A stretch of 23,960 nucleotides of DNA from a virus. The position numbers and the translations under genes were made by a program. Positions 19,046-23,227 of this stretch are shown one piece after another; position 1 is the first letter of the stretch; each line of letters starts with the position of its first letter. The notes beneath the pieces are model-generated. The model made no database searches. It saw only the letters and a program-made list of their open reading frames with translations, and was not told where the DNA came from. The stretch spans positions 1 to 23,960 of the IMG/VR virus record IMGVR_UViG_3300037502_001253. One strand, 5' to 3'.

Positions 19046-19242
19046 TGAAACAGAACAACCCCGTAGGTCGTCCGAAGAAAGGCAACGAAAAACGCTCCTG
19101 TTACGGTGCGTCCCTTGAACCCGCCACCGCTGAACAGGCACGGCTCATATTCGGCTCAGTCGGTAAGGCTGTGGAGTGGGCGGTTAAAATGGCGTATCGT
19201 CAAAATCCGTCCGTCTGTTCTGCATCCCCGCATGTGGATTAG
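19045..19242 (+). CDS. Putative small DNA-binding protein (AT-hook / RHH-like, 65 aa)
   Basis: The frame is taken from the ATG at 19045, MKQNNPVGRPKKGNEKRS. The GRPK tetrapeptide is an AT-hook-like minor-groove element. It is followed by YGASLEPATAEQARLIFGS and VGKAVEWAVKMAYRQ, which has the strand then two-helix layout of ribbon-helix-helix proteins. A repressor-like role for neighbouring promoters, for example the divergent terminase promoter or its own, is plausible. It is the last gene of the plus-strand unit. Its final 59 bases run antisense to the 3' end of the primase-helicase gene, whose acidic tail is encoded there. No terminator is visible between the two. Confidence 0.65.
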   Translation: MKQNNPVGRPKKGNEKRSCYGASLEPATAEQARLIFGSVGKAVEWAVKMAYRQNPSVCSASPHVD

Positions 19243-20938
19243 GCCATCCGTTACTTTGCTGTAGTGGCTCAGGTGGTGCGCTGCTTATTTCGGTGTACCT
19301 GCCTGAATAAACATCGTATGTAAACTCCGACATGCCTATTTTGCCATTAAAAAAGAAACGAACCTTTTGCACATACACGCTCACTTTGTTTGTAACCCTA
19401 TCACGGTACACGGTGAAACCATTATCCGTTTTGTTAAAGAAGTTAGCCGAACCGCTTATGTCGTACAGCGTAGGTATTTCAAAGTCCTTTGTCGCTGGGT
19501 TCTTCTTAATTTTGGTTGGGTGCACAACCATGAAAATGTGAATATCGTAATCCTTTGCAAAGTTGCATATCTCGGTCAGGCACAACGATATGTATTCTGT
19601 TTCCGTCATGTGTGCAGGTCTTTTGTGCTCGATGTAGTTGTACGGGTCAATGACAAGTGCCTTGATTCCGTAAGCCTTAACCAACTGCCTTGCCCGATTC
19701 AGTATGCCATCAAGCGACACATCCTCATTGCGTATCTTGAACCAAAAGAAATGGTCATGCAGAAAGTTCTTTGCGTAGTTAAACTCATCTACGCTCATTC
19801 TGCCCGCCTGCTTAAAGAACGGTTTGCCACTATACACCGATGAAAGATTAGCAGCATGGCGGGTCATTGGCTGATTCTCAAACGAACACACCCCGATTGA
19901 CCACCCATGACGTTCTGCTAATCGTATCAGCACTTGGTCAAGGAAAGCAGACTTACCGCTATTCGGCACACCCGTTATCATCGTAAGTTGCCCACCTGAA
20001 AAGTTAAGCAGGTTATCAAAGTCAGGATAGCCCGTAGTTACTCCACGTTCAAACCCGTTCTCATATACGTTATCCAACTCATACATAAAGTCCGATAACC
20101 TGTAAACCCCCTCAACTGGGAGTGCCTTTGCCCCCGATAAAACCTCACCTACTTTCTCCGTTCCGTACTTCACTAACACCTCATTCAGGTCTTTGCAGTC
20201 GTCAGGGTATCGCACCTCTCTGCAACGGGAACGGTCAAGCCTTCTTGATAATTCGTTTTTAAGGGCTATTCCTGCCTCGTCATTGTCAGTTGCTATGATT
20301 ACCTCATCCGCTTCGTTAAATGCCCACCATGAGGCGTTTAAGTAGTCTAAACGCTGATTTCCTTTCGTTGCACCATTAGGAACTGAACAAACTGCGCTAA
20401 ATCCTGCCTCATATGCGCTCATTGCGTCTATTTCTCCCTCTGTTATGATAACCCGTTTCTGCCCCGCAACAGCATCTATGTTAAAAAGTATTAATTCGGC
20501 ATCTTTGGTCAGCTTGAAGTTCTTCCGTGCGTCCCTGTATTTCACGTTGACCCATGCACCGTTACGGATATACGGGAACAGTATGCAGTTCGATTCGGCA
20601 TTGAGCTGCGGCATCCACTCTTTCTTTTCTGTTATGTGGAAATGCTTTAATGTAACCTCGTTTATGCCTCTTGACTTGAAGTAGCTGATAGTCTTAGCTG
20701 ATAGTGGCAGGCTGACAGTAGGCGGCACAACGTACACTTTCTCCTGCTTTTCGTACAGCCCACCTGTGAACCCGCAATTGTGGCAATTCCAGATACCCTT
20801 GTCGATGTTAACCGATAAGTCCTTACTGTTTCGGTTTTCGGGTTTCCGATTGTGCGGGGTACATGACGGGCAGATCGTTTTGATGTTGCCCGTAGCCCCT
20901 GAGGGTATTTTTATGCCGATTTGTTCAAATGTGCGCAT
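19184..20938 (-). CDS. Primase-helicase (584 aa)
   Basis: This is a two-domain replication protein that makes RNA primers and unwinds DNA at the fork. The N-terminus has a zinc site CPSC...CHNC (cysteines 23, 26, 52, 55). A Toprim core has ITEGEIDAM (Glu168) and ATDNDEAG (Asp218, Asp220). The RecA-like helicase has Walker A GVPNSGKS (323-330) and Walker B ALVIDPYN (Asp431), followed by HPTKIKKN. The architecture is like T7 gp4. The final residues DFDDTPF resemble the acidic tip of SSB proteins. Its ATG overlaps the stop of the initiator gene by one base, and its 3' end overlaps the opposing 65-aa gene by 59 bases. Confidence 0.93.
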   Translation of the reverse strand: MRTFEQIGIKIPSGATGNIKTICPSCTPHNRKPENRNSKDLSVNIDKGIWNCHNCGFTGGLYEKQEKVYVVPPTVSLPLSAKTISYFKSRGINEVTLKHFHITEKKEWMPQLNAESNCILFPYIRNGAWVNVKYRDARKNFKLTKDAELILFNIDAVAGQKRVIITEGEIDAMSAYEAGFSAVCSVPNGATKGNQRLDYLNASWWAFNEADEVIIATDNDEAGIALKNELSRRLDRSRCREVRYPDDCKDLNEVLVKYGTEKVGEVLSGAKALPVEGVYRLSDFMYELDNVYENGFERGVTTGYPDFDNLLNFSGGQLTMITGVPNSGKSAFLDQVLIRLAERHGWSIGVCSFENQPMTRHAANLSSVYSGKPFFKQAGRMSVDEFNYAKNFLHDHFFWFKIRNEDVSLDGILNRARQLVKAYGIKALVIDPYNYIEHKRPAHMTETEYISLCLTEICNFAKDYDIHIFMVVHPTKIKKNPATKDFEIPTLYDISGSANFFNKTDNGFTVYRDRVTNKVSVYVQKVRFFFNGKIGMSEFTYDVYSGRYTEISSAPPEPLQQSNGWPNPHAGMQNRRTDFDDTPF

Positions 20939-21630
20939 CAGAAAACCATTTTAGTTGTGGGTGGTGTAAGTGTAGCGGGTTGGTCGTTCCAACATTTGCC
21001 GTTCAGGTATGTAAGTGGGTTCTTTCGGAACTTTATCTCTGGGGTCGATTCAAGGTAAGCGGGTAGGGTTCGTTTGATTGCTTCGATTTCATCCCGCTTT
21101 AGGGTCTTGAACTTCTTAAAGCATTTTTCACGGTCAACCTTCTTGCCGTATGCGTCCCAAAAAAACGGAAATTGCGCAATAGAGTATTCTTTATCTTCTT
21201 TATCTTCTTTATCATTATTGTTTGGGGGTAGTGTGCGTTTACTGTGCGTAGTAGTGTGCGTTTCCTGTGCGGTGTCGTCTGCGGGGTAGTGTGCGGTGTC
21301 GTCTGCGTTTACCATTCCGTTATAACTATCATATTTACAGACAGTTATCCGTGTACTAACCGTGACGTTTTCGATGGTAATCATACGGTCTTTTTCGAGC
21401 ATACGGAAGAACGAAGCGACTGTCTTTTTTGTCGTTTTCCACTCCGATGCCCATGTATCAAGGCTTTTGACGGACTGCCCTCTTGCGCAATCTATCAGCT
21501 TTCCCTTGATAAATACGCGATTTTTTGCGTGATTTACGCAAAGTAAGATGTCAATCCACCATTGAAGCCGCTTAGGGTCTGACCATATCCAATGAGATTT
21601 TATTTGCCTGTGTAGTCGAATCCAAGACAT
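20938..21630 (-). CDS. Replication initiator / helicase loader (230 aa)
   Basis: The N-terminus MSWIRLHRQIKSHWIWSDPK, then ARGQSVKSLDTWASEWKTTK and KTVASFFRMLEKDRMITIE, is the winged-helix layout common to phage initiators of the DnaD/lambda-O-like group. A low-complexity linker follows (residues about 105-147, with ADDTAHYP/ADDTAQET and DKEDKEDKE). The C-terminal domain has the pattern FWDAYGKKVDREKCFKKFKT, LKRDEIEAIKRTLPAYLES and NPLTYLNGKCW, known from phage replication proteins that load helicase. The primase-helicase gene overlaps its stop, in keeping with partnership. The DNA coding the linker carries regularly spaced short repeats that may be the origin. Confidence 0.85.
   Translation of the reverse strand: MSWIRLHRQIKSHWIWSDPKRLQWWIDILLCVNHAKNRVFIKGKLIDCARGQSVKSLDTWASEWKTTKKTVASFFRMLEKDRMITIENVTVSTRITVCKYDSYNGMVNADDTAHYPADDTAQETHTTTHSKRTLPPNNNDKEDKEDKEYSIAQFPFFWDAYGKKVDREKCFKKFKTLKRDEIEAIKRTLPAYLESTPEIKFRKNPLTYLNGKCWNDQPATLTPPTTKMVF
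21186..21307. other. Candidate replication origin: phased iterons plus AT-rich tract inside initiator gene
   Basis: TGTGCG (or TCTGCG) occurs at 21232, 21243, 21255, 21266, 21278, 21290 and 21302, spaced 11, 12, 11, 12, 12 and 12 bases, about one helical turn. Within this is an 18-bp perfect direct repeat (21266-21283 and 21290-21307) and a 13-bp repeat (21228-21240 and 21251-21263). Next to it is an AT-rich tract with three 9-bp TTTATCTTC-type repeats (21190-21216). The layout, iterons then an AT-rich segment inside the initiator's own linker, matches the lambda O/ori design. That it acts as an origin is inferred. Confidence 0.65.
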
Positions 21631-21634
21631 AAAT

Positions 21635-21826
21635 TTATATTTGATTAGGAGATAAACGATAAAATACCAGTTCGTAATCGGATGTGTAATGAAGGTCGTA
21701 ATCGAACCCGACTATCAGATTTTCAGGTATGGGGTCGATATGCAGCGTTAATACCATTTCAGGCGACAACCTGAATATGAGGCAGTCAATAACGAATAAT
21801 AGTTCTGCATTGTAAACTGTGTGCAT
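21635..21826 (-). CDS. Small hypothetical protein before initiator (63 aa)
   Basis: The 63-residue protein starts MHTVYNAELLFVIDCL and continues with PEMVLTLHIDPIPENLIVGFDYDLHYTSDY. It is acidic, with alternating hydrophobic residues that suggest a beta-type fold. It begins at the end of a U-tract that closes the structured leader RNA, and it ends four bases before the ATG of the initiator gene. That makes it the first gene of the replication transcript and places its start codon under the control of the leader. I do not recognise the family. Confidence 0.55.
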   Translation of the reverse strand: MHTVYNAELLFVIDCLIFRLSPEMVLTLHIDPIPENLIVGFDYDLHYTSDYELVFYRLSPNQI

Positions 21827-21837
21827 AAAATTAAAAA

Positions 21838-21949
21838 TCCCACAAGGGATTGACGGGTAGTAGCGGCGAACTGTTTTACGGTTGCCTCCGTCAGCCCCTT
21901 GTGGGCTAAAAATGTCGTTAAATCATCTGGGCTACTACCTCCAAACGTT
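21838..21949 (-). ncRNA. Structured leader RNA with attenuator-like and pseudoknot pairings
   Basis: Read on the minus strand, CCCACAAGGG (21905-21896) pairs perfectly with CCCTTGTGGG (21848-21839), followed by ATTTTTAATTTT and then the ATG at 21826. Inside it TGACGG/CCGTCA (21893-21888 and 21856-21851) and an imperfect GGCAAC/GTTCGCC hairpin can form. An alternative hairpin AGCCC/GGGCT (21907-21903 and 21897-21893) would break the outer stem. GGTAGTAGC (21939-21931) is complementary to GCTACTACC (21864-21856) in the interior loop. Competing stems, a U-tract and a pseudoknot are what an attenuator or riboswitch-like leader would show. I recognise no known RNA family. Confidence 0.6.
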
Positions 21950-21955
21950 ACCCTA

Positions 21956-21963
21956 CAAAGATA
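21956..21963 (-). promoter_or_regulatory. TATCTTTG promoter element for replication transcript
   Basis: TATCTTTG on the minus strand is identical to the capsid promoter's -7 box, and both are followed by TA. A convincing -33 TTTG is not present. It overlaps the stop of the 56-aa gene and would begin a leader of about 120 bases ahead of the 63-aa gene, initiator and primase-helicase. Confidence 0.55.
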
Positions 21964-22135: not shown

Positions 22136-22750
22136 TCAGAATAGTTCTAAGTCAGGCAACACCATAACGGAGTTATCCCACCAGTGAAAGAATGTTTCCA
22201 TGTCTATTGCGTACAAGTGAAGTGCGCCTGCTTTTTGTTGTACTTTCCTGTATTTCTCTTGTGCGTCACTTACTTTATCTTTCGTGTATTTGTTCTTTAC
22301 TTCTATTGCTAATTTCCTGCCTCTAAATGTCCCGCTTATGTCTGCCGTTCCGACTGTGCCAGATGTTTTTATTCTTATAAACTTTCCATCTTTCTCTATC
22401 ACCCTACCCTCCATCATAATTCTTTCGGCTGCGCCTCCATTCCATTTAATTATTTCTACTATGGCATCGCTTATATCGTTCGTATTGGTAAAATCCTTCG
22501 GTATTTCTTTCGGTATAGAATGCCCGTCTGCTATGACAGTAGCGTGAACTCTGTTGTAATATTTTATACGCTCTTGAGAATATCGCTCTTTAACCCATTT
22601 AGGCACGGGTAGTAGTTTAGCCTTAGGTTTGCGTTTTACGGGTTTCTTTCGTGATGTAGCGGCTGTTATCAGGTCGAATAACTCTTTACTTGCTGCAAGT
22701 TGTTCGGGGCTGAATTGCGCTAACATTTGCTCTTTAGTCTGTTGATTCAT
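22136..22750 (-). CDS. VRR-NUC domain nuclease (204 aa)
   Basis: The C-terminal half has the VRR-NUC pattern: GTADISGTFRGRKLAIEVKN, with Asp137, Glu150 and Lys152 as the catalytic-type residues, then Gln164 in SDAQEKYRKVQQKAGA and a final strand LHLYAIDMETFF. A preceding helix, ISDAIVEIIKWNGGAAERI, also fits the domain. Such enzymes cut branched DNA or act in recombination and repair. The N-terminal 60 residues are a basic, Lys/Pro-rich extension (RKKPVKRKPKAKLLPVPKW) that probably binds DNA. It sits between the ssDNA-binding protein and the replication operon, consistent with replication or recombination. The exact substrate cannot be told from the sequence. Confidence 0.85.
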   Translation of the reverse strand: MNQQTKEQMLAQFSPEQLAASKELFDLITAATSRKKPVKRKPKAKLLPVPKWVKERYSQERIKYYNRVHATVIADGHSIPKEIPKDFTNTNDISDAIVEIIKWNGGAAERIMMEGRVIEKDGKFIRIKTSGTVGTADISGTFRGRKLAIEVKNKYTKDKVSDAQEKYRKVQQKAGALHLYAIDMETFFHWWDNSVMVLPDLELF

Positions 22751-22795: not shown

Positions 22796-23227
22796 CTAAA
22801 AAGGAAGCTCATCGCTGCCCTCTTTCATTGGTTTTGAGAATGGGTCGCCAGTTGCATATCCTGTACCGCCATTAGTTGTATGGTCAGCACTATATACAGG
22901 TATTCCATCATTTACAGGCTGCGCGTTGTTTGCCTCTACGTCTATCTTATACACCTCTACATTCATAAAGAACCGTTCTACATTGTCTTTCATGTACTTC
23001 ACCCCTCGCAGATTACAATGAGCCGTTACCGTCTGCCCTTGTTTCAGGCTATCCATGAACCCGATAATAGTGTCACGTTTGCCGAGTATCGGTATGTACT
23101 GGCTGTACGTTTGCCCGTTGTACTGTTCGTCAACCTGAATAACGATTTGGCGTTCCTTGTAGGTCTTGCCGTTGTGGTCTTTCGATGTTGTTGAGCCTAT
23201 CGCATAGACCGTTCCTTTTACTTCCAT
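22796..23227 (-). CDS. OB-fold single-stranded DNA-binding protein (143 aa)
   Basis: The protein begins MEVKGTVYAIGSTTSKDHNG and continues KTYKERQIVIQVDEQYNGQT, YIPILGKRDTIIGFMDSLKQ and GQTVTAHCNLRG. This is the strand pattern of the OB-fold family DUF3127, which is common in Bacteroidota and used as an SSB by their phages. A flexible Gly/Asn/Thr-rich linker (about 105-130) leads to an acidic, hydrophobic tip, SDELPF, the SSB-type tail that recruits replication proteins. It lies upstream of the nuclease and replication genes, where a phage ssDNA-binding protein is expected. The fold is from family knowledge; the tail is seen directly. Confidence 0.85.
   Translation of the reverse strand: MEVKGTVYAIGSTTSKDHNGKTYKERQIVIQVDEQYNGQTYSQYIPILGKRDTIIGFMDSLKQGQTVTAHCNLRGVKYMKDNVERFFMNVEVYKIDVEANNAQPVNDGIPVYSADHTTNGGTGYATGDPFSKPMKEGSDELPF

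Follow-up and report, generated by a model that had tools for sequence, protein, structure and literature searches.

The window is the whole stretch of viral DNA that we analyzed, 23,960 nucleotides (IMG/VR record IMGVR_UViG_3300037502_001253, positions 1 to 23,960). On its minus strand a replication operon, with a 63-aa ORF and the genes of a replication initiator and a primase-helicase, is headed by a structured leader of about 120 bases. Genes for a 204-aa ORF and an SSB-like protein lie on the other side of the leader (Table 1). Its first hairpin, P1, is joined by a linker to a terminator-like helix, T, with P3 as the upper part of T and P4 further in. The P1 loop holds a strand, X-5', complementary to another, X-3', that sits inside T, and the pairing of these two strands (helix X) makes a pseudoknot that crosses T. 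The preliminary description of this DNA had already pointed out a perfect 10-bp outer stem (CCCACAAGGG with CCCTTGTGGG), a U-tract (TTTTTAATTTT) just ahead of the start codon and an upstream GGTAGTAGC able to pair with an interior GCTACTACC. All three are present, and the last pairing covaries among relatives. Folded as a single sequence, the leader of the window gave an energy z value of -3.25 against 200 dinucleotide shuffles, 2 of which were equally stable.

Table 1. Features of the leader and of the genes around it in the window, in the direction of transcription
Feature	Position	Strand	Remarks
SSB-like protein (DUF3127, phrog_4932)	22796-23227	-	acidic tail ending DELPF
204-aa ORF	22136-22750	-	weak endonuclease match, phrog_93, 5.2e-05
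Promoter box TATCTTTG	21956..21963	-	TAnnTTTG, Bacteroidetes-type -7 box; predicted transcript start near 21949
P1 5' strand CGTTTGG	21941..21947	-	conserved 5-bp core 21945-21941
X-5' GGTAGTAGC, inside P1 loop	21931..21939	-	complementarity to X-3' and covariation
P1 3' strand CCAGATG	21924..21930	-	covariation
Competing local hairpin AGCCC/GGGCT	21907-21903/21897-21893	-	weak covariation; predicted in window nascent RNA
T (outer stem) 5' arm CCCACAAGGG	21896..21905	-	covariation of the T/P3 helix
P3 5' strand TGACGG, upper part of T	21888..21893	-	folding and covariation
P4 5' strand GGC	21884..21886	-	covariation
P4 3' strand GCC	21865..21867	-	covariation
X-3' GCTACTACC, between P4-3' and P3-3'	21856..21864	-	complementarity and covariation
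P3 3' strand CCGTCA	21851..21856	-	folding and covariation
T 3' arm CCCTTGTGGG	21839..21848	-	folding and covariation
U-tract TTTTTAATTTT, foot of T	21827..21837	-	followed by ATG at 21826
63-aa ORF, directly 3' of the U-tract	21635..21826	-	without family match
Replication initiator, DnaD-like helicase loader	20938..21630	-	PHROG 2514, 2.9e-28
DNA primase-helicase	19184..20938	-	PHROG 239, 1.2e-102; Toprim and DnaB_C

The closest relative (L036) carries a primase 97% identical to that of the window. Homology between the two breaks at window position 21949 and resumes at 21648, and the insert between the breakpoints in L036 holds another gene behind another leader, built on the same plan, whose loop CTGCCA goes with TGGCAG. 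Leader and first gene (window 21648-21949, L036 3096-3689) are exchanged as a cassette between these phages. Elsewhere, a single 62-kb contig (IMGVR_UViG_3300037493_001386, loci L164 and L167) carries two initiators, each behind its own leader and with different X.

Relatives and covariation of the leader

A search of IMG/VR with a pattern containing both X strands gave 34 loci. Two of them, L008 and L022, have no such structure and were dropped as chance matches before anything was counted; the remaining 32 have homologues of the leader, those of L011 and L024 being divergent (L024 was missed by the filter and added by hand). The alignment A2 was built without L011 and L003. Among 17 relatives, with the window left aside, 96.4% of the cells pair, 16 of the 33 pairs show two-sided changes and none of 500 shuffles matches the covariation score. 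The covariance model made from these 17 (R1) scores the window at 77.3 bits (E 7e-17); L003, likewise outside the model, reaches 76.9 bits. R1 also detects elements that precede related primases and differ in X (L047, L042-L044, L049).

Since the first search had demanded the X sequence itself, loci were fetched again by the replication initiator protein only. This gave 102 loci, of which 7 with short or partial upstream regions were left out, and the element was found upstream of the initiator in 89 of the 95 searched; L147, L222, L223, L224, L225 and L228 gave no match. Two of the 89 elements were cut off (L138 and L152) and were not used, and the 87 complete ones represent 67 distinct sequences (group A, to which the window belongs). 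The P1 loop is complementary to X-3' in all 67. We aligned 65 of them with the window and L003 (alignment A4, 67 sequences): 95.0% of the cells pair and 25 of 33 pairs show two-sided changes, while 0 of 500 column shuffles reach any of the whole-structure values and structures slid along the alignment fall to 32-48% paired. By helix, two-sided changes appear at 5/5 pairs of P1 (100% paired), 12/16 of T/P3 (91.7% paired), 2/3 of P4 and 6/9 of X. Twenty different 9-mers occupy X. Of its 603 cells none is one-sided, and the 16 that are unpaired all belong to the terminal pair; X has no G-U cells, whereas P1 and T do have G-U pairs. The preliminary description had staked its reading of a structured 5' leader with a pseudoknot heading the replication operon on covariation of the named stems. 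This is clearly found, strongly for the outer stem, P1 and the pseudoknot, so the leader reading survives. Two other ideas were rejected on the same material. A local hairpin of the window, AATCCC-TTGT-GGGATT, is absent from A4 as a conserved terminator, and a coding function of the group A leader finds no conserved internal ORF (the one open frame of the window leader is without ATG and is lost in relatives).

PMC7366714 gives TAnnTTTG as the Bacteroidetes -7 consensus. The number of such boxes in the window is unremarkable (20 found, 21.7 expected), and what is conserved is the position ahead of P1. Among 59 distinct upstream regions, 36 have an exact box at most 20 nt upstream of P1 (background 1.5%) and 58 have one when a single mismatch is allowed (background 18%), the sole miss (L034) having been scored on the wrong strand. 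Relatives are also U-rich at the end of the stem, the first three U positions of the count in groups A and B being imposed by the search expression.

We have examined also 80 relatives of the primase. Upstream regions of 78 loci were taken (L038 and L115 were left out), and 68 with at least 700 bases upstream were evaluated with a strict descriptor, which required a hairpin loop able to pair with a strand within a stem that has a U-tract as its tail and an ATG nearby. It matched 46 of the 68 loci, while the shuffled controls gave 8 matches in 340 regions and the reverse strands 2 in 68. A looser core of X crossing T was found in 9 of the 22 misses and 1 of 110 shuffles, although for L082 and L093, both among the nine, P5 was what the test reported, not X; both descriptors were written and tuned after examples had been seen. 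A permissive descriptor did not discriminate (799 real and 585 shuffled matches). Nothing useful came from blastn of the leaders against the phages collection, and the leader pattern had no match in the genome contigs collection, where the primase search gave one locus, in a Peregrinibacteria MAG.

The same topology appears ahead of more distant primases in 26 loci with 23 distinct elements (group B, alignment A3). P1, X, P2, P3 and P4 follow in the order of group A, with two-sided changes at 4/8 pairs of X, 6/7 of P2 and 4/5 of P3, 97.0% of cells paired and no shuffle out of 500 reaching the covariation score, the P3 and P4 columns having been identified on A3 itself. In an extra helix, P5, the bases just before an internal AUG pair with the P4 loop through varied sequences (the script assigned P5 of L109 wrongly). 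An internal ORF is uninterrupted in each of 18 distinct elements, the other two frames having 43 and 38 stops; among shuffled sequences, 30% are open. In 24 of the 26 loci (for example L111:3149-3284) this ORF shares its frame with the following gene, and the first protein of group B may start inside the RNA structure.

Cultured phages carry the arrangement too. X crosses T before the replication genes in five of the ten loci from the phages collection (L116-L121, L124-L127), all five from cultured Bacteroidetes phages: Cellulophaga phi10:1, phi19:1 and phi19:3, Tenacibaculum JQ and Flavobacterium elemoA. The leaders of phi10:1 and phi19:1 are near-identical. Only the three Cellulophaga phages were flagged by the core test of the script, and JQ and elemoA were recognised from the list of helices and the reading of the folds. 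X crossing T was not seen in phage PJN03, in Riemerella phage CRP19 or in three faecal scaffolds (one of these, L119, has almost no upstream sequence). With more than 100 relatives, the RNA is not the orphan that it had been called.

The Rfam scan proposed beforehand was run with Rfam 15, and at the gathering threshold no family matches the element, whether in the window or at 17 other loci; the best match below threshold in the window was CRISPR-DR25 (21 bits, cut-off 36). The only families matched in those loci were tRNA, in L121 and L037, and abiF RNA (RF03085, 42.4 bits), at L230:7273-7308 on the plus strand. L230 is one of nine contigs (L230-L238) in which an ordinary terminator-like hairpin has its upper stem and loop made of a 20-mer, TTCAGAGGTAGTAGCCTGAA (near 8477 in L230). 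Some 50-65 nt upstream of it lies GCTACTACC, the same X pair in reversed order. These phages appear to use another type of promoter, and the X pair there would be chance or convergent use.

Predicted folding order and proposed control of the operon

Comparison of the relatives shows P1, X, T/P3 and P4, their order, where the promoter lies, that a U-tract follows the foot of T and that the leader is linked with replication operons. The succession of promoter, leader, intrinsic-terminator-like end and first gene is that of an attenuator, as far as sequence and covariation tell. With nearly as much confidence as doubt, we tentatively propose that the leader attenuates transcription of the replication operon under pseudoknot control, X favouring read-through and T termination. 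From the structure we infer T as the terminating state and X as the anti-terminating one. RNA polymerase would begin at the TAnnTTTG promoter and synthesize P1 and later X-3'; X would pair first and oppose the closure of T for as long as it persists, the 3' arm of T and the U-tract emerging only after X-3'. With X held, the initiator and primase-helicase genes would be reached by read-through; with X absent or displaced, T would close and transcription would end after about 120 nt.

The folding predictions, taken with the order of synthesis, put X early and T late. Calculated with a pseudoknot-free program, which cannot show X and T together and makes them exclusive by construction, nascent RNAs ending at X-3' form X with a mean probability of 0.90 in group A (above 0.5 in 63/67) and 0.77 in group B (above 0.5 in 21/23). 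With the same pseudoknot-free folding of full-length leaders, T exceeds 0.5 in 61/67 elements of group A and in 23/23 of group B, and X is not formed. X and T have no strand in common, so a pseudoknot holding both is geometrically thinkable and X need not prevent T; their mutual exclusion is what the model supposes. The preliminary description had placed the exclusive folds elsewhere, in a competition between the outer stem and the AGCCC/GGGCT hairpin. Exclusive states do appear in the predictions, as X in nascent and T in full-length RNA. The hairpin is present in the window, where it holds the 5' arm of T in the nascent fold, but it is weakly conserved among relatives (74.6% of cells paired and 2 two-sided pairs; 63.7% of cells for a 6-bp version in a smaller alignment) and was rejected as the main switch. 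A conserved antiterminator hairpin sharing strands with T was not found. The interior of T, at about 45-65 nt, is long, unlike textbook terminators, and this counts against the attenuator.

The main rival is control of translation, to which we give a minor but real chance. The knotted fold at the ribosome entry site would block initiation of the first gene until opened, and the U-tract would be a ribosome-binding stretch. Over 44 distinct elements the stem ends 8-20 nt from the AUG in group A and 7-18 nt in group B, with one group A outlier that reads -1 (its AUG apparently spans the start of the U-tract). So narrow a spacing, 7-20 nt in all but 1 of 44, means that translation control may matter, and P5 with the open internal ORF of group B speaks on the same side. 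Group A, however, has no conserved ORF of this kind, and in the cultured phages the U-tract is still at the foot of T with the AUG 23-48 nt away (distances read by eye). Since the U-tract stays with T at either distance, it looks like the tail of a terminator rather than a ribosome-binding stretch, termination itself being presumed from this signature.

The changing pseudoknot helix

Helix X combines strict pairing with fast change. Its inner five positions differ by 0.465 per site between sequence pairs, against 0.305 elsewhere (all nine X-5' positions give 0.316, near the rest of the element), and apart from the terminal pair every change is matched by the partner. Between L206 and L204 just 0.9% of the other columns differ, yet two X pairs do, and their first-gene products are 97% identical; with L128 and L130 counted as well, X differs between elements whose first-gene products are 97-99% identical. 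Conversely, one X type accompanies ten different first-gene starts. The type of X being thus uncoupled from the first gene, an operator read by the initiator was rejected, and the independent variation argues for pairing specificity instead. A helix so strictly paired and so quick to change suggests a function in recognition, not a passive fold, and for this reason the balance of X and T would most likely be shifted by a trans-acting RNA that pairs with X-3' or with the P1 loop.

One step further, and doubtful at present, is the idea that X is a code of self and non-self, an RNA copy-control and incompatibility system of phages. Under such a code the terminated leader RNA would use its P1 loop or X-3' to pair with nascent leaders of the same X; this would break the X helix, allow T to form and turn the replication genes off as genome copies accumulate or when a like phage superinfects. 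It would account for the faster change of X, its strictly paired double changes and its independence from the first gene. Plasmid copy-control RNAs change much like this X: according to PMC10724649, the RNAI molecules of IncK1 and IncK2 differ by five nucleotides and yet are compatible. If true, the code would be comparable to plasmid incompatibility groups, in phages.

The terminated RNA might also be the main product, as the preliminary description had allowed. The promoter would mainly yield a trans-acting small RNA of about 120 nt, the operon being served by read-through or by another promoter. A promoter at one end, a terminator-like end at the other, a self-contained fold and an X that varies as a recognition sequence would all fit, but the element heads the replication operon in the loci examined and keeps its narrow spacing to the AUG. 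We find this quite unlikely; with an attenuator, a terminated non-coding RNA would be a by-product. Improbable, too, is regulation of the operon by a phage protein bound to the pseudoknot, with the SSB-like protein as a candidate. It is encoded next door and the case resembles T4 gp32 acting on its own leader, but the sequence of X and the first gene vary independently and recognition would have to be of structure only. That X-5' and X-3' act in DNA, as inverted operator or origin sites of a DNA-binding protein, is very improbable: an inverted repeat with no G-U cells is expected of two operator copies, but X occupies the loop of the covarying P1 stem, the adjacent helices do have G-U pairs, and X and first gene go their own ways as described. 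We give hardly any credence to the small-molecule riboswitch mentioned in the preliminary description, in spite of the compact pseudoknotted leader and its terminator-like end, for groups A and B and the cultured phages share the topology with no common sequence core and no Rfam riboswitch matches.

Significance and comparison with known leaders

In searches of open-licence PMC papers we recognised no description of the element, and taken as a cis-regulatory leader of attenuator type, with its unusual fold of a pseudoknot crossing a terminator, it is apparently undescribed. If the attenuator reading holds, a pseudoknot helix crossing a terminator helix is a switch design unlike that of shared-strand antiterminators, and the strictly paired yet fast-changing pseudoknot is an unusual evolutionary pattern in itself. 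To our knowledge, little is known about the timing of replication in Bacteroidetes phages. The leader may decide whether the replication genes are read, and because it is compact, widely shared and present in cultured phages, it makes this timing testable.

In the lambda 6S/tR' and HK022 put leaders, transcription of a phage operon needs either an antiterminator protein or an RNA polymerase that is modified directly. They are likewise promoter-proximal leaders with a terminator at the head of a phage operon, although neither structure nor sequence is related. The T4 gene 32 leader has a 5' pseudoknot with a short first loop through which the gene product regulates itself. It resembles our element as a 5' pseudoknot, also with a short first loop, in the leader of phage replication genes, but T4 lacks the terminator helix and its regulator is the gene's own product, whereas the first genes behind the phage leaders vary. 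In plasmids of the pT181 type a countertranscript attenuates transcription ahead of the replication initiator. Attenuation at that same place is what we propose for the phages, with the difference that the alternative structure would be a pseudoknot helix and not an antiterminator of shared strands.

Close in design, too, is the rep leader of ColIb-P9 and the IncI complex, in which a switch between a loop and a downstream strand, forming a pseudoknot, controls the replication initiator. There an antisense RNA acts against the hairpin, as a countertranscript does in pT181, and the phage leader is not known to have one. The plasmid leader peptide that enables the pseudoknot has no counterpart in group A, the window included, an open internal ORF being present in group B only. 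As in the plasmids, the loop of a 5' hairpin of the phage leader pairs with a strand ahead of the initiator gene. Small changes in the loop set specificity in the plasmid system, as with the RNAI of IncK1 and IncK2 (PMC10724649). What sets the phage element apart is that its X lies inside a terminator-like helix and that its carriers are phages of Bacteroidetes.
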